From Bacteroidota bacterium (GTDB taxonomy: Bacteria > Bacteroidota > Bacteroidia > Chitinophagales > LD1), in the NCBI GenBank assembly GCA_947479455.1, contig CANJZE010000022.1, positions 1-64,000 of the forward strand: a stretch of 64,000 nt of DNA, written 5' to 3'. Below the pieces are notes generated by a model. The model did not search any database. It had not been told where the DNA came from and saw only the letters and a program-made list of their open reading frames with translations. Shown piece after piece: positions 48,457 to 58,570 of this stretch; within the stretch, counting starts at the first letter, position 1; the number at the start of each line of letters is the position of its first letter. A program made the position numbers and the translations under genes.

Positions 48457-50658
48457 ATGAAAAAAATATTTCTACTCCTTGTTGCTTTTGCAAGCACATC
48501 ATTTCTTTTTTCACAGATAGATTACACCAAATATGTTGACCCCTTTATAGGCACTGGCGGGCACGGACATACTTTCCCCGGACCGACTATGCCTTTTGGT
48601 ATGGTGCAGTTGAGTCCTGATACACGACTGAAAGGTTGGGATGGCTGTTCGGGATATCATTACACTGATAAACTGATTTACGGTTTCTCGCACACGCATT
48701 TGAGTGGCACCGGGTGCAGCGATTACGGAGATATTTTGCTAATGCCTACTGTTGGCAAAGTTCAGTTCAGCAATAAAAAATATTCTTCTTCTTTTAAAAA
48801 AGAAAGCGAGAAAGCAAGCGCTGGTTATTATTCTGTGTTGCTAAATAAACCAAACGTGAAAGTAGAACTCACTGCTACTACACGCACCGGTTTGCACAAA
48901 TACACTTTTCCGAAATCAACTTCTTCAAATATTATTTTGGATTTAACGCATCGCGATTTTGCGAAACAAGGAGAAATAAACATTACGGGCAACAACGAAA
49001 TTTCGGGAACGCGCGTGAGCAAGCAGTGGGCCGATAATCAGATTCTGTATTTCGTTATTCAGTTTTCTAAACCGTTTACAAAAAGTGGAATTGCAAAAGC
49101 AGATGCAGTAAACACAAATTCTAAACACGACACTGGTTCGTTGCTGAAAGCATTTGTAAGTTTTGAAACTGCCGAAGGAGAAGTTGTTTATGCAAAAGTG
49201 GGCATCAGTGCAGTGAGTGTAGAAGGTGCGCGTAAAAATCTGAATGCAGAACAACCCGCTTTTGATTTTGATAAAACTGTTGCCGATGCAAAAGCGGGAT
49301 GGAACAAAGAACTCGGCAGGGTAGAAGCAGAGAGTAAAGACGAAACTGTGCTGCGCACTTTTTATTCTGCATTGTATCATGCCATGATTCCTCCGAATAT
49401 TTACAACGATGTGGATGGCAAATATCGTGGCAGAGATTTTAAAGTGCATGATGCAAACGGATTCAATTACTACACAGTATTTTCGTTGTGGGATACTTAC
49501 CGCGCACTGCATCCGCTGTTGACTTTGATTGATAAAAAACGCAGTTCCGATTTCATGAACACTTTCATTCATCAATATGCCGAAGGTGGTCGTTTGCCTG
49601 TGTGGGAACTAAGCAGTTGCGAAACCTGGTGTATGATTGGTTATCATTCTATTCCTGTAATTACTGAAGCGGTGATGAAAGATGTAGCCGGTTTTGATGC
49701 CAATAAAATTTTTGATGCAATGAAGTTCAGCGCCATGGAAGACAAAAATGGTTTGAAGAGCTACAAAGATAATGGCTACGTAAAGTATATGGAAGCCGGA
49801 GAAAATGTTTCGCGCACCTTGGAATATGCCTATGACGATTGGTGCATTGCGCAGGTAGCGAAAAAATTGGGCAAGACAGATGACTATAACTATTTTACGA
49901 AGCGCGCATTGAGCTACAAAAATCTGTTTGATGCAGCATCGGGTTTTATGCGACCGCGCAGCGGAAGTTTTCTAACGCCTTTTGACCCATATAAAGTTGA
50001 CCACAATTATACCGAGGGCAATGCGTGGCAGTATTCTTTTTATGTGCCGCAAGATTTAAGCGGACAAATGAAACTGCTGGGCGGCAAAGAAAAACTCGCG
50101 AGTTTTCTCGACACGCTGTTTACTACTTCCTCCAAACTCACAGGTAAAAAGCAGCCCGACATTACCGGTATGATTGGGCAATACGTTCACGGCAACGAGC
50201 CAAGCCATCAGATTGCATATGAATATGATTATGCAGCACAACCCTGGAAAACGCAAAGCATGGTGCGCAGAATTATGAATGAAATGTATCGCGATAAACC
50301 CGATGGTTTATCTGGCAACGAAGACTGCGGACAAATGAGTGCCTGGTATGTTTTCAGCGCCTTGGGTTTTTACCCCGTGTGCCCGGGCAGCGACCATTAT
50401 GCGATTGGCTCACCGATGGTTGACAAAGCAACTATTCATTTAGAGAGCGGAAAAACGTTTACGGTTACGGCTAATAACAATCAAAAGGGAAATGTTTACA
50501 TCAGCTCTGCTAAACTGAATGGAGCAAATTACACCAAAAGTTATTTGCTGTATGATGATTTAAAAAATGGAGGCACATTGCAATTGGAAATGAGCAGTGA
50601 GCCAAATAAAAATTGGGGAAGCAGTGAGCAAGATGTTCCGGTAACAAAAATTGATTAA
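48457..50658 (+). CDS. GH92 alpha-mannosidase, copy 1
   Basis: GH92 enzymes are calcium-dependent exo-alpha-mannosidases acting on N-glycans or yeast mannan. The 733-residue protein has a signal peptide (MKKIFLLLVAFASTSFLFS), the N-terminal motif VDPFIGTGGHGHTFPGPTMP, GWDGCSGYHY, HTHLSGTG, HGNEPSHQIAYEYDY and the C-terminal GNEDCGQMSAWYVFSALG. These match the family's two-domain layout. It has no T9SS domain, so it is probably periplasmic. It starts the run GH92-six-hairpin-GH3-GH92. Confidence 0.92.
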   Translation: MKKIFLLLVAFASTSFLFSQIDYTKYVDPFIGTGGHGHTFPGPTMPFGMVQLSPDTRLKGWDGCSGYHYTDKLIYGFSHTHLSGTGCSDYGDILLMPTVGKVQFSNKKYSSSFKKESEKASAGYYSVLLNKPNVKVELTATTRTGLHKYTFPKSTSSNIILDLTHRDFAKQGEINITGNNEISGTRVSKQWADNQILYFVIQFSKPFTKSGIAKADAVNTNSKHDTGSLLKAFVSFETAEGEVVYAKVGISAVSVEGARKNLNAEQPAFDFDKTVADAKAGWNKELGRVEAESKDETVLRTFYSALYHAMIPPNIYNDVDGKYRGRDFKVHDANGFNYYTVFSLWDTYRALHPLLTLIDKKRSSDFMNTFIHQYAEGGRLPVWELSSCETWCMIGYHSIPVITEAVMKDVAGFDANKIFDAMKFSAMEDKNGLKSYKDNGYVKYMEAGENVSRTLEYAYDDWCIAQVAKKLGKTDDYNYFTKRALSYKNLFDAASGFMRPRSGSFLTPFDPYKVDHNYTEGNAWQYSFYVPQDLSGQMKLLGGKEKLASFLDTLFTTSSKLTGKKQPDITGMIGQYVHGNEPSHQIAYEYDYAAQPWKTQSMVRRIMNEMYRDKPDGLSGNEDCGQMSAWYVFSALGFYPVCPGSDHYAIGSPMVDKATIHLESGKTFTVTANNNQKGNVYISSAKLNGANYTKSYLLYDDLKNGGTLQLEMSSEPNKNWGSSEQDVPVTKID

Positions 50659-50684
50659 AGCGCATGCTGCCTCGAAAAAAAATT

Positions 50685-51986
50685 ATGAAAATTAAAATCA
50701 CATCGCTCGTTATAATCTCGCTTCTATCTGTCAACAGTTTGTTTGCGCAAACAAATCATGACTTAGCTAAAAGCATTGAACAAAATCGGGACTTCAAGTT
50801 GGTGAAAGAAAAAGCGCAGGCAATAATTAAAACCGGATTCAATGCCGGTGATGGTTATATACAGGTTTGGATAAGAGATATGAATACGTTCATAGAATTG
50901 GCAATGGATGAAAATCCGAAAGAAGTTGAAAATGCGCTGTTGGTGTTTTTTAAACTTCAGGCAGAAGACGGAAATATTTTGGATGGATATACTCCCGCTA
51001 AGGATAAAAAACCCTTCACTAAAAAAAAGGATTGCGTGAATACCGCTTTGGCTCCAGACTACTGCGGCCATAAAAACACGGTTGCTACCGATCAGGAAAC
51101 CTCACTGATTCAGGCCGTTTATAAATACGTAACTAAAACAGGAAATACGCAATTTCTGCAAACTAAAGTTGGTGAACTAACAGTGGCACAACGAATGGAA
51201 ATGGCCATGGTTTATTTGATGAAACATAAGTGGACTGAAAAATACGGGTTGATTATTGGAGCCGCTACAGCCGATTGGGGCGATGTGCAACAAAGCGGTT
51301 TCAGTGGCGTGGATATTTCGAAGAAGACAAAATTTTGTGCCGATGTTTACGACAACGCCATGATGATTATCGCTTTAAAAAACATGATTGAAATTTTGCC
51401 CCAGACTAAAAACAAATGGCAACCAATCTGCGATTCCATTGCACAAAACACCATGAAGTATTTATGGGATAATAAAAATCAGAAGTTCATTCCTCATCTG
51501 TATTTAGATGGTTCGCCATATCCTGCAAGCTTTGATGAAAACAAAATTTTTTACCACGGAGGAACAGCCGTGGCAATTGAAGCAGGACTTTTATCTAAAG
51601 AGCAAATTCTGGTTTCGTTACAAAAAATGAAAGCCAATGTAAAGGAATCAGGAGCCGCTTCTATTGGATTAACGCTTTATCCTGTTTACCCAAAATGGGC
51701 TTTTGAAAATCCGGGCTTGACTCCCTGGCAGTATCAAAACGGTGGCGACTGGACATGGTTTGGCGGAAGAATGATTCAACAGTTAGTGCGCTTCGGGTTT
51801 GTTGAAGATGCCTACGAATGCTTACTACCTATGACCGCAAGGGCTGCAAAAAATAATGGATTTTACGAATGGTATACAAAAGAAAACAACCCAAGAGGCT
51901 CAGGAACTTTTCGTGGCGAAGCGGGTGTGTTGTATAAGTCAATTACCATGTTAGAAGAATGGAGCAGAATGCAAATCAAAAATTAA
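50685..51986 (+). CDS. Exported six-hairpin (alpha/alpha)6 glycosidase
   Basis: The start at 50685 gives a signal peptide (MKIKITSLVIISLLSVNSLFA). The mature protein is helical with aromatic and acidic clusters typical of (alpha/alpha)6 glycosidases: VWIRDMNTFIELAMDEN, TADWGDVQQSG, DVYDNAMMIIALKNM, QNGGDWTWFGGRM and GEAGVLYKSITM. The exact GH family is not clear; GH63-, GH125- or GH133-like types are candidates. It lies 26 bases after the GH92 gene and 16 before GH3, so it probably acts on the same glycan. Confidence 0.7.
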   Translation: MKIKITSLVIISLLSVNSLFAQTNHDLAKSIEQNRDFKLVKEKAQAIIKTGFNAGDGYIQVWIRDMNTFIELAMDENPKEVENALLVFFKLQAEDGNILDGYTPAKDKKPFTKKKDCVNTALAPDYCGHKNTVATDQETSLIQAVYKYVTKTGNTQFLQTKVGELTVAQRMEMAMVYLMKHKWTEKYGLIIGAATADWGDVQQSGFSGVDISKKTKFCADVYDNAMMIIALKNMIEILPQTKNKWQPICDSIAQNTMKYLWDNKNQKFIPHLYLDGSPYPASFDENKIFYHGGTAVAIEAGLLSKEQILVSLQKMKANVKESGAASIGLTLYPVYPKWAFENPGLTPWQYQNGGDWTWFGGRMIQQLVRFGFVEDAYECLLPMTARAAKNNGFYEWYTKENNPRGSGTFRGEAGVLYKSITMLEEWSRMQIKN

Positions 51987-52002
51987 TGCAGAAAGTAAAA
52001 TC

Positions 52003-54195
52003 GTGAAGAAGCAATTTTCGTTTTTAATAATACTCTGCATTTTTTGCCATTCAGCATTTTCTCAAAATGCTGATTACCGCAACACTTCTTTGTCATTTGA
52101 ATTAAGAGCCTGGAACTTAGTTCACAAAATGACGCTTGAGCAAAAAATATCGCAACTCGGAAACGATGCTCCTTCTATTTCCACTTTGGGTATTGAAAAA
52201 TACGATTGGTGGAACGAATGCTTACATGGTGTGGCACGAGCCGGTGAAGCCACCGTGTTTCCTCAAGCTATTGGTATGGCAGCAAGTTTTGATACTGCGT
52301 GCATGTATATAGTGGCTGATGCTATAAGCACCGAAGCACGCGCAAAATACAATGATGCTGTTCGCAGAAATCAAGAGGGCAAGCGCTATTACGGACTTAC
52401 TTTCTGGTCGCCTAACATCAATATTTTTCGCGACCCTCGCTGGGGGCGCGGGCATGAAACCTATGGCGAAGACCCCTATTTAACCGCACAAATGGGCGTT
52501 CAGTTTGTAAGAGGTTTGCAGGGCAACGACCCGAAGTATTTTAAAGTGATAGCCACTGCCAAACATTATGCTGTACACAGCGGTCCGGAATCGGAACGAC
52601 ATTTTTTTAATGCAGAACCCGAAGCCCGCGATTTGTATGAAACTTATTTACCGGCTTTTGAAAACTTAGTAAAAAAGGCAGGTGTGTTTTCAGTAATGAG
52701 TGCTTACAATCGCGTTTATGGTCAATCGGCAAGTGCAAGCAAATTGCTGCTTGAAAATATTTTGCGCAACGAATGGGGTTTTAACGGCTATGTGGTTTCT
52801 GACTGCGGTGCCATTCGCGACATTTTTAAGTTTCATAAAATAACGGAGAACAAAACGCAAGCATCGGCCCTGGGTATTACCAATGGTTGCGATTTAGATT
52901 GCGGAACGGTTTATCAGTCTGCTCTAAAAATGGCCGTTAAAAATAATCTTGTTTCAGAGCAGGATATTGATACTTCTGTTTACCGGTTAATGTATGCCCG
53001 CATGAAATTGGGCATGTTCGATAGCGCTGAAGACGTGTCTTTTTCGCGCATTCCATTCTCTGCAAACAATAGCACCGAACACGATGCCTTAGCGTTTGAA
53101 ATGGCGAAAAAATCAATGGTGCTTTTAAAGAACAATGGCATTTTACCGATAAACAAAAACGCAATAAAAAAAATTGTGGTCTTAGGTCCCAATGCAAACA
53201 GTCTGAAAGTTTTACGCAGCAATTACTTTGGCGAAGCATCGCATCCTGTAACGGTGTTGGAAGGAATTGAAAAATTAGCAGGCAATGCGGTTGAAATATT
53301 TTATGCGAATGAAGTTCCCATTGCTTCAGCCAATCCCCCAAAATTTAAATTTTCATCTGCAACACTTGATAAAATTAAAGCTGCTGATGTGGTATTATTT
53401 GTTGGCGGATTAGATGCCACGTGGGAAGGAGAAGAAGGAAGCGTGATGAAAGCAGTAGGCGGATTTTCGGGTGGCGACAGAACAAAAATTGAATTACCCG
53501 ACATTCAGTTGCAAGCGTTGCAGGCAATAAAACTAACCGGTAAACCTGTTGTATTTGTTTTGATGTCGGGCAGTGCTGTATCGTTCAATGGCATGGAAAA
53601 AAACATGGATGCTATTTTGCAAGGGTGGTATCCGGGCCAGCGAGGAGGCGATGCCGTAGCCGATGTGCTTTTCGGAAATTACAATCCAGCGGGGCGTTTA
53701 CCTGTTACTTTCTATTCATCAACCAATGAGCTTGCCGACTTTCGCGATTATAATCTTCGCTCAGGCAAAGGACGAACCTACCGCTTTTACAAAGGCAACG
53801 CACTCTATCCGTTTGGCCACGGACTTAGCTACACCCAATTTGAATATTCTAACCTTGAAATAGATAAAACAACATTTTCAAATACGGAAAACATCAGTGT
53901 TTCTGTAATGGTAAAAAATACCGGGAAAGCGGATGGTGAAGAAGTTGTTCAGTTATATATCAAAGATCTGGACTCAAAACTTTGGATGCCCGAAAAACAA
54001 CTTAAAGGTTTTCAAAGAATTCATTTAGAAAAAGAACAAACAAGAAAACTGATTTTTGAAATTCCGGTTGCTGATGCACTCAAATACTATGACGAAAACT
54101 TGAAACAATTCAACGTAGAACCTGGCGAATTTCAAATACAAATTGGAGCATCTAGTAACGATGTTAGGCTGCAAAAGAATGTGGAGGTGAGGTGA
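52003..54195 (+). CDS. GH3 beta-glycosidase
   Basis: The frame opens with GTG at 52003 and gives a signal peptide (MKKQFSFLIILCIFCHSAFS). GH3 motifs are WNECLHGVARAGEATVFPQA, FWSPNINIFRDPRWGRGHET, KHYAVHSGPESER and VVSDCGA, which holds the catalytic Asp. A GH3 C-terminal domain and a fibronectin III-like domain (EEVVQLYIKD) complete the 730-residue protein. The ECLHGVAR form is typical of beta-xylosidase or beta-glucosidase members. It is periplasmic and in one operon with the GH92 genes. Confidence 0.9.
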   Translation: MKKQFSFLIILCIFCHSAFSQNADYRNTSLSFELRAWNLVHKMTLEQKISQLGNDAPSISTLGIEKYDWWNECLHGVARAGEATVFPQAIGMAASFDTACMYIVADAISTEARAKYNDAVRRNQEGKRYYGLTFWSPNINIFRDPRWGRGHETYGEDPYLTAQMGVQFVRGLQGNDPKYFKVIATAKHYAVHSGPESERHFFNAEPEARDLYETYLPAFENLVKKAGVFSVMSAYNRVYGQSASASKLLLENILRNEWGFNGYVVSDCGAIRDIFKFHKITENKTQASALGITNGCDLDCGTVYQSALKMAVKNNLVSEQDIDTSVYRLMYARMKLGMFDSAEDVSFSRIPFSANNSTEHDALAFEMAKKSMVLLKNNGILPINKNAIKKIVVLGPNANSLKVLRSNYFGEASHPVTVLEGIEKLAGNAVEIFYANEVPIASANPPKFKFSSATLDKIKAADVVLFVGGLDATWEGEEGSVMKAVGGFSGGDRTKIELPDIQLQALQAIKLTGKPVVFVLMSGSAVSFNGMEKNMDAILQGWYPGQRGGDAVADVLFGNYNPAGRLPVTFYSSTNELADFRDYNLRSGKGRTYRFYKGNALYPFGHGLSYTQFEYSNLEIDKTTFSNTENISVSVMVKNTGKADGEEVVQLYIKDLDSKLWMPEKQLKGFQRIHLEKEQTRKLIFEIPVADALKYYDENLKQFNVEPGEFQIQIGASSNDVRLQKNVEVR

Positions 54196-54292
54196 CGTTT
54201 TTAGCACTTAATAAACGTAGTAAGATCGTTGTAGGCCTTTGTTTAAAAATTAACCTGCCAACGCGTTTTAGTAATTCTTTATTTCTTTGATT

Positions 54293-56581
54293 ATGCTAAA
54301 ACCACACTCTCTGAAAAAGGCAATCCTTCTTTTTCTGCTCTTTCCCTTGTTTCTTTTTTCTCAAAAAGATTTTTCTGCTTATGTAAATCCGTTCATTGGC
54401 ACAGGTGGACATGGACACACTTTTCCTGGTGCTACGGTTCCTTTTGGTATGGTGCAATTGAGCCCCGATACAAGATTGACAGGTTGGGATGGTTGCTCGG
54501 GCTATCATTATTCCGATAAAAAAATTTATGGCTTTTCGTACACGCACTTGAGCGGCACCGGTTGCAGCGATTATGGCGATGTAATGCTGATGCCAACCGT
54601 TGGTAAGGTTCAGTTGAGTAACAAAAATTACGCTTCTACTTTCAAAAAGGAAAACGAAAAAGCAAGTGCGGGTTATTACGCAGTTTATCTCGACAAACCC
54701 AACGTACACGTGGAGTTAACCACCACCACCCGCACGGGTTTACACAAATACACTTTCCCCAAGTCAAATTCTTCAAATGTTATTCTTGATTTAACCCATC
54801 GGGATAAGGCGAAGAAGGGAGAAATAAATATTACCGGCAACAACGAACTATCAGGTTATCGCATCAGTACTGCTTGGGCAAGCAATCAGCACTTATACTT
54901 CGTTATTCAGTTTTCAAAACCATTTAAAAAATTTGGCACTGCCAAAGCCGATGCGAAGAGTAAAGGAAGCAAACATTTGCGTGGAAGTTTTTTGAAAGCG
55001 TATGTGCAATTTGAAACCGAAGAAGATGAAGTGATTTATGCGCGTGTGGGAATTTCAGCAGTGAGTATAGAAGGCGCCCGTAAAAATTTAGAAGTTGAGC
55101 AGCCCACTTTCGATTTTGAAATGATAAAAACTGATGCTGTAAAACTTTGGAACAAAGAGCTTGGAAAAATTGAAGTAGAATCTGACAGCGAGAACGACAA
55201 GCGCATTTTTTATACGGCACTCTACCACAGCATGATTGCACCTAATGTTTATCAAGATGTAGATGGAAAATATCGCGGACGCGATTTGCAAGTGCACGAA
55301 ACCAAGGACTATACCAACTACACTGTTTTCAGTTTGTGGGATACCTATCGCGCTTTACACCCATTGCTCACCATCATTGACCGCAAACGAACTTCCGACT
55401 TCGTCAATACTTTCATTACACAATATAAAGAAGGTGGTTTATTACCCATTTGGGAACTTTCAGCCAATGAAACGTACTGCATGATTGGTTACCATGCCGT
55501 ACCCGTAATAACCGATGCTTATTTAAAAGGAATTGCCGGCATAAACGCTGCGCTGGCATTGCAGGCTATGCAAAAAAGTGCTGAGACTGATGAGCGGGAA
55601 CTACGCGCCATTAAAAAGCCACTCACCATCTTATCTGCTGTATCGTTATACAGATACAAGAAGGGCATGAGCCACTATTTCAAAAATGGCTACATCAAGA
55701 ATAGTTTTATGAGCGGATCAGTGGCGAAAACACTGGAGTTTGCTTATGACGATTGGTGCATAGCGAAGATGGCTGCTGCTATGGATAGCACTTCTGTTTA
55801 CGATAAGTTTATAAATCGCGCAGCGAACTATAAAAATGTTTATGACCCTTCTACAGGTTTCATGCGCGCACGAACCAAGAGAGGTTTCATTGGAGGATTT
55901 GACCCTTACAAAGCAAGTCTCACCATATATTGTGAAGCAAATGCCTGGCAATATTCACCTTATGTACCTCAAGATATTTCAGGACTCATGAAGTTATCGG
56001 GAGGCAAAGAGCGTTACAGTCAATTTCTTGATTCGCTTTTTCATACTACTTCAAAAGTAAAAGGGCTGCACACACAAGATATATCTGGCATGATAGGGCA
56101 ATATGCGCATGGTAACGAACCCAGCCATCATGTTGCATACATGTATGATTATACAGGGCAAGCATGGAAAACTCAGGAAATGACCCGGAGAATAATGTCG
56201 GAATTTTATCTTAATAAACCTGACGGATTGCCCGGCAACGAAGATTGCGGACAGATGAGTGCCTGGTATGTTTTCAGCGCGTTGGGTTTTTATCCCGTGT
56301 GCCCGGGCAGCGACCATTATGCTATTGGCTCACCGATGGTTGACAAAGCAACTATTCATTTAGAAAATGGGAAATCGTTTACAGTTACTGCCAACAACAA
56401 CCAAAAAGAAAACGTTTACATCAGTTCTGCAAAACTGAATGGCGCTAACTACACCAAGAGTTATTTAAGCTATACCGACATTGCGAACGGAGGAACGCTT
56501 GAGTTAAGCATGAGTGCTGAACCAAATAACAACTGGGGAAGTGCGGAGGGTGATGTGCCGGTGACGAAGATTGAAAATTGA
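54293..56581 (+). CDS. GH92 alpha-mannosidase, copy 2
   Basis: The start at 54293 gives a signal peptide (LKKAILLFLLFPLFLFSQ). It has the same motifs as copy 1 (VNPFIGTGGHGHTFPGATVP, HGNEPSHHVAYMYDY, GNEDCGQMSAWYVFSALG) and a similar length (762 residues). An extra stretch of about 20 residues (TDERELRAIKKPLTILSAVS) sits in the middle domain before KNGYIKNSF. The 3' part is nearly identical to copy 1 at base level over about 104 bases. The two enzymes probably differ in linkage preference. Confidence 0.92.
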   Translation: MLKPHSLKKAILLFLLFPLFLFSQKDFSAYVNPFIGTGGHGHTFPGATVPFGMVQLSPDTRLTGWDGCSGYHYSDKKIYGFSYTHLSGTGCSDYGDVMLMPTVGKVQLSNKNYASTFKKENEKASAGYYAVYLDKPNVHVELTTTTRTGLHKYTFPKSNSSNVILDLTHRDKAKKGEINITGNNELSGYRISTAWASNQHLYFVIQFSKPFKKFGTAKADAKSKGSKHLRGSFLKAYVQFETEEDEVIYARVGISAVSIEGARKNLEVEQPTFDFEMIKTDAVKLWNKELGKIEVESDSENDKRIFYTALYHSMIAPNVYQDVDGKYRGRDLQVHETKDYTNYTVFSLWDTYRALHPLLTIIDRKRTSDFVNTFITQYKEGGLLPIWELSANETYCMIGYHAVPVITDAYLKGIAGINAALALQAMQKSAETDERELRAIKKPLTILSAVSLYRYKKGMSHYFKNGYIKNSFMSGSVAKTLEFAYDDWCIAKMAAAMDSTSVYDKFINRAANYKNVYDPSTGFMRARTKRGFIGGFDPYKASLTIYCEANAWQYSPYVPQDISGLMKLSGGKERYSQFLDSLFHTTSKVKGLHTQDISGMIGQYAHGNEPSHHVAYMYDYTGQAWKTQEMTRRIMSEFYLNKPDGLPGNEDCGQMSAWYVFSALGFYPVCPGSDHYAIGSPMVDKATIHLENGKSFTVTANNNQKENVYISSAKLNGANYTKSYLSYTDIANGGTLELSMSAEPNNNWGSAEGDVPVTKIEN
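56555..56574. repeat. 20-bp direct repeat, left copy (3' end of GH92)
   Basis: GTGCCGGTGACGAAGATTGA forms the last codons of the GH92 gene (VPVTKIE) and is repeated exactly at 57139-57158. The two copies bracket the two-gene module 56634-57139. Confidence 0.85.
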
Positions 56582-56633
56582 TTTGATTACTGAATGAATT
56601 TGTTGAACCGATTTTTATAAATTAAATTTAACT

Positions 56634-56882
56634 GTGAATACGATTAAGCGTAAACAGAACGAAGCCGAATTTGAACATTGGGAAGAACTTTCGGAAGGTG
56701 GAAGAAAATACTGGTTTGATGTGAAAGGAAAGGTGAGTGGTTTTGCGCGATACATTAAAGAGGTGAATTGCGAAGAAGAAACTGTTTCATTTATACAGGA
56801 GATTTATAACAACGAAGGAGAACTAACAGATAGACACGAAAAATATCCCATAGATAAAGGACATCAAAAATTGAAATCATGA
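56634..56882 (+). CDS. Small hypothetical protein, first gene of a two-gene module
   Basis: The frame opens with GTG at 56634. The 82-residue protein (RKQNEAEFEHWEELSEGGRK, GKVSGFARYIKEVNCEEE, FIQEIYNNEGELTDRHEKYP) is one domain with many charged and aromatic residues. I have seen similar small proteins next to a partner like the following gene, but know no function. The stop overlaps the next start by four bases (ATGA). It could be half of a toxin-antitoxin-like pair; this is inference from size and coupling. Confidence 0.6.
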   Translation: MNTIKRKQNEAEFEHWEELSEGGRKYWFDVKGKVSGFARYIKEVNCEEETVSFIQEIYNNEGELTDRHEKYPIDKGHQKLKS

Positions 56883-57139
56883 TAACGAAACAAATAATAG
56901 CACAGCAACTTCTGAAATATTTGAACCATCAAATAACTCTAAAAGCATTAGTTGACTGGGCAGAGACTTCTATCATGCAAGGAAACATAGAACCCACCGA
57001 ACCACGCGCACTCATGCAAATACTCGGACGTATTGGCGCGGCTGATGTAAAAGAATTTGGTTTACTATGGGAAGACTGCGACTCTATTATGCACCAACTC
57101 GGCTACGATATAAAGGTGGATGCAAACTTGGCTGCGTAG
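56879..57139 (+). CDS. Small hypothetical protein, second gene of a two-gene module
   Basis: The 86-residue helical protein (MITKQIIAQQLLKYLNHQIT; LKALVDWAETSIMQGN; ADVKEFGLLWEDCDSIMHQL) is translated by coupling to the first gene. The LNHQITLKALVDWAE segment recurs, from memory, in conserved hypothetical proteins found in mobile or defence-like neighbourhoods. There is no signal peptide. Its stop codon shares a base with the right copy of the 20-bp direct repeat. Confidence 0.62.
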   Translation: MITKQIIAQQLLKYLNHQITLKALVDWAETSIMQGNIEPTEPRALMQILGRIGAADVKEFGLLWEDCDSIMHQLGYDIKVDANLAA

Positions 57140-57158
57140 TGCCGGTGACGAAGATTGA
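57139..57158. repeat. 20-bp direct repeat, right copy
   Basis: An exact copy of 56555-56574. It is not needed to encode anything here, so it looks like a scar from insertion or duplication next to GH92. Confidence 0.85.
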
Positions 57159-57211
57159 GTGAGAGAGAATCTCTTAACTATTCTATAGTTGTTTTAATAA
57201 AGAGCATAGCA

Positions 57212-57754
57212 ATGAAAAAAATAATCTTAACGAATAGTGCAATTTTATTGATTGCATTAGGTTTTGCACAAGCGAACTTTAAATGGGAAAAAATAGATTC
57301 TGCTGCTAAAACTAAAGCACAGATATATTCTGATACAAAAATGTTTATTGCTGAGTATTGGAAATCTGCACAAAACGTCATTCAAAACGATGACAAAGAC
57401 GCTGGAATGATTTTAGTTAAAGGAAATATCAATGAATCTACAACTTCGGTGGGGGTAGGAGTGCCGGTTGAATGGCATTATTCTTATACAATAAAGTTTC
57501 TAATAAAAGAAGGTAGATATAAAATTGTAATTGAAAATGTAAATTGTGAGTCCTCCATATGGTATGGTAAACCTAATCTTGTTGATTGCCTTGCACCATG
57601 CGACAGCTGTGACTTTCCGGGATTCGGAAGAACAGGTTTAAATAAAGCGAAGTATGTGGAATTATTGACTTCATTAAAAAATGACCTACAAAGTATTGTT
57701 GACAGCTATGAGAAATACATTAAAACCCCAAGTGTATCTAATGGTGATTGGTAA
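57212..57754 (+). CDS. Secreted DUF4468-like protein
   Basis: The start at 57212 gives a signal peptide (MKKIILTNSAILLIALGFAQ). The mature part has the alternating pattern (KAQIYSDTKMFIAEYWKSAQ, IQNDDKDAGMILVKGNIN, YSYTIKFLIKEGRYKIVIEN) I associate with DUF4468, a TBP-like fold in Bacteroidota envelope proteins. The 180-residue protein has a Cys cluster (CLAPCDSC). No enzyme motif is seen. It follows the direct repeat with its own short leader. Confidence 0.7.
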   Translation: MKKIILTNSAILLIALGFAQANFKWEKIDSAAKTKAQIYSDTKMFIAEYWKSAQNVIQNDDKDAGMILVKGNINESTTSVGVGVPVEWHYSYTIKFLIKEGRYKIVIENVNCESSIWYGKPNLVDCLAPCDSCDFPGFGRTGLNKAKYVELLTSLKNDLQSIVDSYEKYIKTPSVSNGDW

Positions 57755-57817
57755 AAATAATTTGCACTTTGTTAGTGCTTTAGTATCGGCTTTGCGATAC
57801 GCCACCAACAATTTTAC

Positions 57818-58570
57818 TTACTCCACCATCACCTTCTTCACCCCCAAACCATCAGCGGTTCGGTATTCAATAAAGTAGATGCCCTTAGCGTATTGACTGA
57901 TGTCAATCGTGGTTTCATAAAAAGGAGAAGCGGTTTTTTGCGAATAAATAATTCGTCCGGTTATGTCGCGTACATTTATTTCTCCATTTGCTTTTGCAGG
58001 TGAGTTAAAACGCAGTTCAAAAACTCCGTGGTTAGGATTCGGATAAACAGAAAAATTTTCGGCTAAGGCCGGGCTTTGTTTTTTTATTGCTGTAGTCGTA
58101 TTTGTGCAAACTTCTCCCGAATCAATTACCGTCAACGCATAGTCAGGCAAACTGCCGGGAACATTTGCTTTCAAATACCAAAACGGAGCATTGCCCGCGC
58201 TGGTGTAAGCGGTACCATCGTAAGTAATTTGATAAAAGCCCACGGTGTCAGTGGTAGTTCCCGAAATGTGAATGCACATTCTTCCTTCGGGGTGCATAAT
58301 GCCGTTAATTGGTGTAGCCACTTTTGTTATTCCTGTTGGCAGATTATGAAACGCACTTACTTTAATTGAATCAATGGTAATGCCGCCTATCGATGGCGGA
58401 CAAAATAATTGCAGCGTAATATCATAAGGTTGATGTCTGATTACGCAAGGCAACTCTTCAGAAGGCGGTGAAAACAAGCTGTAGTTGTTGGTGTCAATCA
58501 CACACGATTGACTGAACGCAGTGCTTGCAGAAACAAGAAGAACAAAAAGGAAGAGTTGAAGTTTTTTCAT
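57818..58570 (-). CDS. Secreted protein with type A T9SS sorting domain
   Basis: The 250-residue protein has a signal peptide (MKKLQLFLFVLLVSASTAFS), an N-terminal domain of about 150 residues with several Cys that resembles the start of the SprB-repeat protein at 15452-17227 (SIKVSAFHNLPTGITKVATP; GRMCIHISG), and a sorting domain (FSVYPNPNHGVFEL to GVKKVMVE). It lacks SprB repeats. It is probably surface-attached; the function is unknown. Confidence 0.8.
   Translation of the reverse strand: MKKLQLFLFVLLVSASTAFSQSCVIDTNNYSLFSPPSEELPCVIRHQPYDITLQLFCPPSIGGITIDSIKVSAFHNLPTGITKVATPINGIMHPEGRMCIHISGTTTDTVGFYQITYDGTAYTSAGNAPFWYLKANVPGSLPDYALTVIDSGEVCTNTTTAIKKQSPALAENFSVYPNPNHGVFELRFNSPAKANGEINVRDITGRIIYSQKTASPFYETTIDISQYAKGIYFIEYRTADGLGVKKVMVE

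Follow-up and report, generated by a model that had tools for sequence, protein, structure and literature searches.

Type II toxin-antitoxin (TA) modules include ParDE, DUF433/DUF5615 and DUF4258/DUF2283 (ParE and YafQ are named here by Pfam). The spread of small TA-like modules without mobility genes into unrelated genomes is poorly explained so far. Restriction-modification (RM) genes are described as inserting with long target duplications (Nobusato et al. 2000; Furuta et al. 2010, as presented in PMC3874152, PMC3031569 and PMC1643837; PMC2654758 carries Nobusato in its reference list). For effector-immunity modules of the type VI secretion system (T6SS), PMC5361080 puts forward a putative mechanism akin to homology-facilitated illegitimate recombination. 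In this study, we analysed a stretch of 64,000 nt from a Bacteroidota bacterium (contig CANJZE010000022.1, positions 1 to 64,000; hereafter the window), in which two small genes, P1 and P2, stand behind the GH92 gene GH92A and between two copies of a 20-nt sequence. We give a probability of roughly 45% to the reading that P1-P2 is a horizontally acquired, probably TA-like pair that entered this lineage at the GH92 3' end by tail capture.

Two exact copies of the 20-mer GTGCCGGTGACGAAGATTGA lie in the window (56555-56574 and 57139-57158); a search that allowed up to 3 mismatches gave no others, and at the same tolerance these are its sole matches in the whole genome. None of 100 dinucleotide shuffles of the window gave two matches, which rules out a chance repeat. 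The starts of the two copies are 584 bp apart, with P1 and P2 between them. A sequence-only reading of this DNA had proposed a 20-base direct repeat formed by the last codons of GH92 and the bases exactly after the second small gene. The repeat proved exact and unique in the genome, and it does lie near the GH92 end, but both edges had to be shifted. The left copy encodes V-P-V-T-K-I plus two bases of the codon for E, after which N and the stop codon complete GH92A at 56581. The final base of the P2 stop codon is also the first base of the right copy. P1 (56634-56882) and P2 (56879-57139) overlap by 4 nt and run in the same direction. The features of the locus are as follows.

54287..56581, + strand: GH92A, the upstream target gene, 764 aa (Pfam Glyco_hydro_92, 1.1e-181); the last ~250 nt appear to be of GH92B type (discordant trees)
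56555..56574, + strand: left copy of the 20-mer at the 3' end of GH92A (sequence search)
56575..56633, + strand: left spacer; AATTGATTTGA near its start matches DNA after GH92B in the relative G012, not the native downstream DNA
56634..56882, + strand: P1, 82 aa, GTG start; predicted N-terminal helix and beta meander; candidate toxin
56879..57139, + strand: P2, 86 aa; predicted four-helix protein; candidate antitoxin
57139..57158, + strand: right copy of the 20-mer, putatively the stub of the old gene tail, continuous with the native downstream DNA
57218..57754, + strand: DUF4468, native downstream gene, with a homologue after the GH92B tail in the relative G016
48457..50658, + strand: GH92B, paralogue with a GH92A-like tail (trees)

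Eighteen genomes of the genus were compared, G000 being that of the window. P2 was found in four of them (G000, G007, G001 and G017) and P1 in the same four; the pair stands at GH92 in G000 and G007 only, and elsewhere in G001 and G017. The site is empty in G016, where GH92B, a single copy of the 20-mer, GTGAG...AATCTCTTAACTATT, the DUF4468 homologue and a Por-secretion-tail gene follow each other with no pair. The gene order to the right of the second copy in the window matches the order after the 20-mer in G016. When the left flank of the window is joined to the DNA past the right copy, the resulting sequence stays colinear with G016 over the tail and the stop codon and for ~25 nt more; farther out the DNA alignment is poor, and the encoded proteins still correspond. 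This single tail copy without the pair indicates that P1-P2 was inserted at a GH92 gene end, G016 representing the empty state. A look for empty sites had been advised by the sequence-only reading, and G016 supplies one. G000, G007 and G016 lie at almost equal distances from one another (91.4-91.9% in an NAD epimerase gene) and the split uniting G000 and G007 has a support of 0.107, so the tree leaves room for, and may be compatible with, a loss of the pair in G016. A matching arrangement stands behind GH92A in G007, with a repeat of 26 nt that contains one mismatch. This suggests that the original repeat was probably 25-26 nt long and that 9 nt next to the right copy have since been lost from the window.

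The insert contains no transposase, and the sole inverted repeat of at least 12 nt in 56000-58000 is not located at the ends of the element. Without terminal inverted repeats, and with an insert free of transposase, an identity as insertion sequence or transposon was rejected. Neither the insert nor the scanned neighbouring genes of the window encode an integrase, and inspection showed different repeats at different loci. Therefore, with no common attachment sequence and no integrase in these genes, the proposal of a small site-specific cassette is unsupported. Integration at a gene end, which had been proposed along with it, agrees with the empty site in G016, with the recurrence of the pair in unrelated places and with the bracketed loci described below. 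At locus L108 (156-1553), P1-P2 lies directly behind a gene of the phage integrase family.

The two copies in the window differ in what follows them. The right copy continues into TGAGAGAGAAT, which is exact in G017 and has two differences in G016. The left copy continues into AATTGATTTGA, which is shared with the DNA after GH92B in G012; roughly estimated, an 11-nt match with any of some eight tails would arise by chance with a probability close to 1e-5. From these matches, the left tail looks like the incoming allele and the right tail like the native one. The paralogues also carry a trace of exchange. In the first 1400 columns of the GH92 alignment, the GH92A genes of G000 and G007 group with GH92A of G006 (support 0.997). 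In the last ~250 columns, the GH92B genes of G000 and G007 group with GH92A of G006 (0.97), and GH92A of G000 groups with GH92B of G016 (0.925). This discordance suggests that GH92A and GH92B of this clade exchanged their 3' tails (window 48457-56581).

The same region permits an explanation in which the repeat says nothing about the mobility of the pair. The right copy would be the leftover tail of GH92B, and one block, comprising a 443-aa glycoside hydrolase (GH) gene, GH3, GH92A and the pair, would have been inserted near the GH92B end. The 443-aa gene is GH94-like; GH3 occurs at high similarity in G000 and G007 only of the 18 genomes, with one weak match (36%) in G008. This restriction of GH3 favours a single block, as do the position of GH92B before the DUF4468 gene in G016 and the homology of the GH92A and GH92B tails. 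However, the swapped tail groupings are what a single crossover between the paralogues predicts, and such a crossover fits the way in which the 443-aa gene, GH3 and GH92A separate GH92B from its tail. If the pair had come on a single-crossover circle, it would have been placed behind GH92B, so we take its acquisition as an event separate from that of the GH block. Other copies of the module also sit at the tails of other genes. We consider an insertion in one block unlikely.

For tail capture, we propose the following course of events. The incoming DNA that carried the pair would have had homology to the GH92 tail in its left part. A recombination event within the GH92 gene would have swapped its tail for that of the donor and brought the pair in. 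The right end would have been attached at a point within the old tail with no homology involved, so that the last ~26 nt of this tail stayed behind as a stub. The left 20-mer would then be the tail of the donor and the right 20-mer the displaced old tail of the recipient, in a process like homology-facilitated illegitimate recombination.

The pair is also found far outside this genus. A P2 scan of genome contigs gave 53 loci in many phyla, according to the labels of the sequence records (Bacteroidota, Planctomycetota, Verrucomicrobiota, Nitrospirota, Deltaproteobacteria, Omnitrophota, Chloroflexi and others). P1 lies upstream of P2 in 42 of 54 loci, the window included, at a distance of at most 131 nt and in most cases of no more than 17 nt, and P1-anchored searches gave nine places, all nine with P2 beside P1. 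P1-P2 is a conserved, uncharacterised two-protein family present in many phyla, and it recurs beside unrelated genes. The module is rare: it was counted in 2 of 395 Bacteroidota genomes, one being that of the window, and in 3 of 387 genomes of the phylum to which G441, itself one of the three, belongs. No match was obtained in plasmids for the P2 of the window, in phages for the P2 of L107, or in viral contigs with alignment A3, each being one query and an absence at that sensitivity.

Direct repeats around the module were enriched. With 250-nt flanks and a direct repeat score of at least 20, 11 of 53 loci were positive compared with 5 of 424 random intervals from the same loci, and in a cross-locus control of 52 loci none of 624 pairs scored above 14. 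A uniform test used 900-nt flanks, which were unusable in 2 of 58 P2 loci and 6 of 90 ParE loci. It gave brackets at 15/56 P2 loci compared with 10/169 random intervals (10 rows from 7 loci; Fisher 7e-5) and with 8/84 ParE loci, drawn from largely the same genomes (Fisher 0.007); two ParE loci, L204 and L278, were centred ~200 nt off. As L101 and L192 are one locus entered twice, and the window and L084 are one insertion, the independent brackets number 14/54. The insert measured 584-800 bp in nine of the 12 bracketed loci with a P1 match and 1150-1200 bp in three; it was 370, 448 and 1523 bp in the three without P1 (L089, L093 and L097). Where the repeat is the 3' end of an upstream gene, which holds for six of the 15, that gene is GH92, deoC, cysS, MTHFR or an RM gene.

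A stricter test asked for the tail of the directly upstream gene to be repeated downstream. This was the case for 5 of 30 such genes (the genes being GH92, MTHFR, DeoC and CysS), compared with 8 of 235 other genes at the same loci, of which four (L090, L097, L098 and L291) have repeats that also span the module, and with 2 of 332 genes at ParE loci. The Fisher values were 0.009 for 5/30 against 8/235, 0.03 for 4/29 against 8/235 and 0.0005 for 4/29 against 2/332. Two further P1-anchored loci carry a spanning repeat at a looser distance, of 54 nt in L290 and 82 nt in L291, and neither was recognised as a gene tail. A tail test at the peptide level had a noisy null (20/530 at a score of at least 45) and served as a pointer only. 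Overall, bracketing is enriched but neither universal nor site-specific, and gene tails account for only part of it. Among the ParE loci, seven of the eight positive brackets (L206, L231, L244, L251, L254, L262 and L283) hold inserts of 725-835 bp, approximately the size of ParDE. This is suggestive of a like bracketing pattern for ParDE, though 8/84 is near the rate of the random intervals.

The differences between tail copies bear on how the repeats arose. In an unconstrained, decaying duplicate, most changes would alter the protein. Synonymous and nonsynonymous codon differences were counted between the tail copies of seven loci and compared with 4000 neutral simulations. The deoC copies of L093 showed 13 synonymous and 6 nonsynonymous differences (neutral mean 3.2/13.4; reached in 0/4000 simulations), and those of the priA-like gene in L134 showed 5 and 1 (P 0.0018). 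For deoC in G483, the main gene and copy 1 differed by 8/2 (0/4000), copies 1 and 2 by 5/0 (P 0.001), and the main gene and copy 2 by 4/2 (P 0.037). The copies of L084 had one change. At three of the seven tails, of which only L093 brackets P1-P2, both copies seem to have diverged as parts of working genes; such a synonymous bias suggests two alleles of one gene tail, unlike a decaying duplicate.

These counts have to be set against the account first given for this locus, a duplication of the target end. The pair would have been inserted by some enzyme or repair event that made a copy of part of its target, as proposed for RM systems, and the two copies would have been identical at birth. The direct repeat with a single-copy empty site stands in its favour, the copies in the window are identical, and the repeat lengths vary among loci, as PMC3874152 reports for RM systems. 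The duplication itself is made doubtful by the synonymous-biased differences at L093, at L134 and twice in G483, and by the left spacer of the window, which matches DNA after GH92B in another relative (G012). We hold target duplication to be possible but on the doubtful side. The mechanism thus stands between capture and duplication, with capture somewhat ahead.

The pair was also examined as a candidate TA module. Neither P1 nor P2 had a family above the cut-off in Pfam or NCBIfam, PADLOC and PHROGs gave only weak matches (E 0.0098 or worse), a sequence search of the Protein Data Bank (PDB) gave chance-level matches only, and a profile comparison of P1-P2 gave nothing informative. The P2 model has four helices (pLDDT 93), and its best PDB match is ImmD, the colicin D immunity protein (1v74_B; Foldseek E 4.1, Z 6.5, rmsd 3.0, 75 residues aligned, 12% identity). 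Z values of this size are common for helical proteins. The P1 model has one helix and a beta meander (pLDDT 91), and its best fold matches are single-layer beta sheets (Rhs cores at Z 7.0, OspA and others) with no clear family. Residues invariant in 33 P1 sequences include Y26, Y40, K42, Q55, H68 and K70. Genes of TA families (ParE, YafQ, DUF4258/DUF2283, DUF4160/DUF2442 and PIN) are neighbours at some loci, and three P2 loci that lack P1 have ParE (L106), YafQ (L125) or DUF4258/DUF2283 (L097) in the upstream position.

The integrity of the two genes was compared at 63 loci, three of them entered twice (L092/L193, L097/L198 and L101/L192), which makes 60 distinct loci. Both genes were whole at 38/63. 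P2 was whole with P1 in pieces or partial at 9/63 and with P1 absent at 9/63, so that a broken or absent P1 beside a whole P2 was seen at 18/63 loci (17/60 distinct). A whole P1 with a broken P2 was seen at none, and both genes were affected at 7/63. Within the genus, P1 of G007 has no ATG, GTG or TTG at the start position used in the window, and at G017:C45 P1 is split by a frame change next to an open P2 of 87% identity. Because P1 is lost or broken beside a whole P2 and never the reverse, P1-P2 looks TA-like, a TA function being a reasoned conjecture. We infer that P1 would be the harmful member and P2 the antidote.

Several observations weigh against the reading of P1-P2 as a TA-like pair that arrived by tail capture. 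The likeness of P2 to ImmD is weak, a designed protein (9k8k_A) reaching Z 6.0 and the next match 3.3. P1 shows no known toxin fold; BECR nucleases and colicin D are absent among the matches listed, although a likeness to them may still exist. The tally of TA neighbours stands without a control count. The loci were mostly found via P2, which biases the asymmetry between the two genes; frame breaks in draft assemblies may be errors, and some loci end at contig edges. As for capture, the GH92A tail of G007 stands apart and does not group with that of G000, and the identical copies of the window carry no synonymous or nonsynonymous signal. The copies of MTHFR in L089 (3/3; 0.095) and CysS in L123 (2/1; 0.21) have too few differences, and those of L097 (3 synonymous, 11 nonsynonymous) look neutral.

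The polarity of the copies raises a further difficulty. The window agrees with a donor tail on the left and a native tail on the right, and L093 disagrees. There G430 and G471 align colinearly (82.8%) as far as the stop codon of deoC, at an identity that stays even over the whole gene, which marks the left copy as native; it is the right copy that looks foreign, the reverse of what is predicted. L093 and G471 were ruled out as a precise empty site, their right flanks not being colinear; the gene after deoC in G471 was not found in the ~11.7 kb read beyond deoC in G430. The polarity of L093, opposite to simple capture, would call for a second transfer or another mechanism.

The brackets themselves are also uneven. 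At 41/56 P2 loci no bracket exceeded the threshold, and only 6/15 brackets involve gene 3' ends (the window, L084, L089, L093, L123 and L097), so that the description of the repeat as usually a gene tail failed on recount. The repeats of L085 and L100 are terminator-like, those of L090 and L115 are dispersed or REP-like, and the remaining ones are unplaced. The expectation that the pair is always flanked by a duplicated piece of the upstream gene was therefore not borne out. Two findings had been named beforehand as counter-evidence to the sequence-only reading. The first, the pair elsewhere without repeats, was made; the second, a doubled 20-mer without the pair, was not seen in the GH92 ends of the relatives examined. 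The unbracketed loci are also what would be expected of an ordinary small gene pair beside a chance or decayed paralogous repeat, its mobility having been over-read. The empty site in G016 disfavours this explanation, as do the shuffled windows and the recurrence beside unrelated genes in many phyla, and we regard it as very improbable.

Tail repeats also surround other cargo. In G483 (L295, 1000-11250), the deoC tail occurs three times, in the order main gene, three genes, a 205-nt copy, a DUF433/DUF5615 pair and a 99-nt copy, and two of the three genes match type III RM models. In G001 (L134 1637-2701 / L056), the tail of a large gene, which we take to be PriA-like from its sequence, is duplicated around a two-gene module without a Pfam match, and P1-P2 directly follows the copy. 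The ATG with which the pair begins overlaps the stop codon of similar gene tails at L118 and L099 (both 2690-2760, P1-P2) and at L097 (2442-2540, DUF4258/DUF2283); the gene with the overlapped stop in L118 is an Eco57I-type RM gene per Pfam. It is conceivable, if rather doubtful, that P1-P2 represents a new cross-phylum TA type spreading without a transposase by tail capture, that RM and small modules at like sites (deoC in G483, the priA-like gene in G001) spread likewise, and that the stubs form a fossil record of defence-gene acquisition. If true, brackets made of two tail alleles would offer a testable mechanism, a site-by-site record of donor and recipient, and a signal by which mobile modules so far unrecognised could be searched for.

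In the open-licence literature, we found no paper describing TA modules with such flanking repeats or target duplication, and none containing the four P1/P2 motif words that were tried. The locus can be compared with four known systems. Like type II TA modules, P1-P2 consists of two small adjacent co-directional genes with a patchy spread, some common neighbourhoods and some repeat brackets; unlike them, it belongs to no known toxin or antitoxin sequence family, and its order would be toxin first. ImmD is the nearest structure to the P2 model, but at the 12% identity and E 4.1 given above, and colicin D is not among the P1 matches listed. The likeness to the long target duplications of RM systems lies in a module without its own transposase, long and variable direct repeats of the target, and an empty site in a relative. 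The window has a direct repeat on both sides and G016 a single copy, and the deoC-tail bracket of G483 encloses a type III RM-like system. The difference is that the cargo here is a small TA-like pair, that several repeats lie at gene 3' ends, and that some copies are allele-like. The T6SS effector-immunity modules of PMC5361080 share with tail capture an upstream homology anchor, a non-homologous right end and an old 3' piece displaced downstream; there the anchor is the module's own, whereas here the anchors are unrelated host genes.

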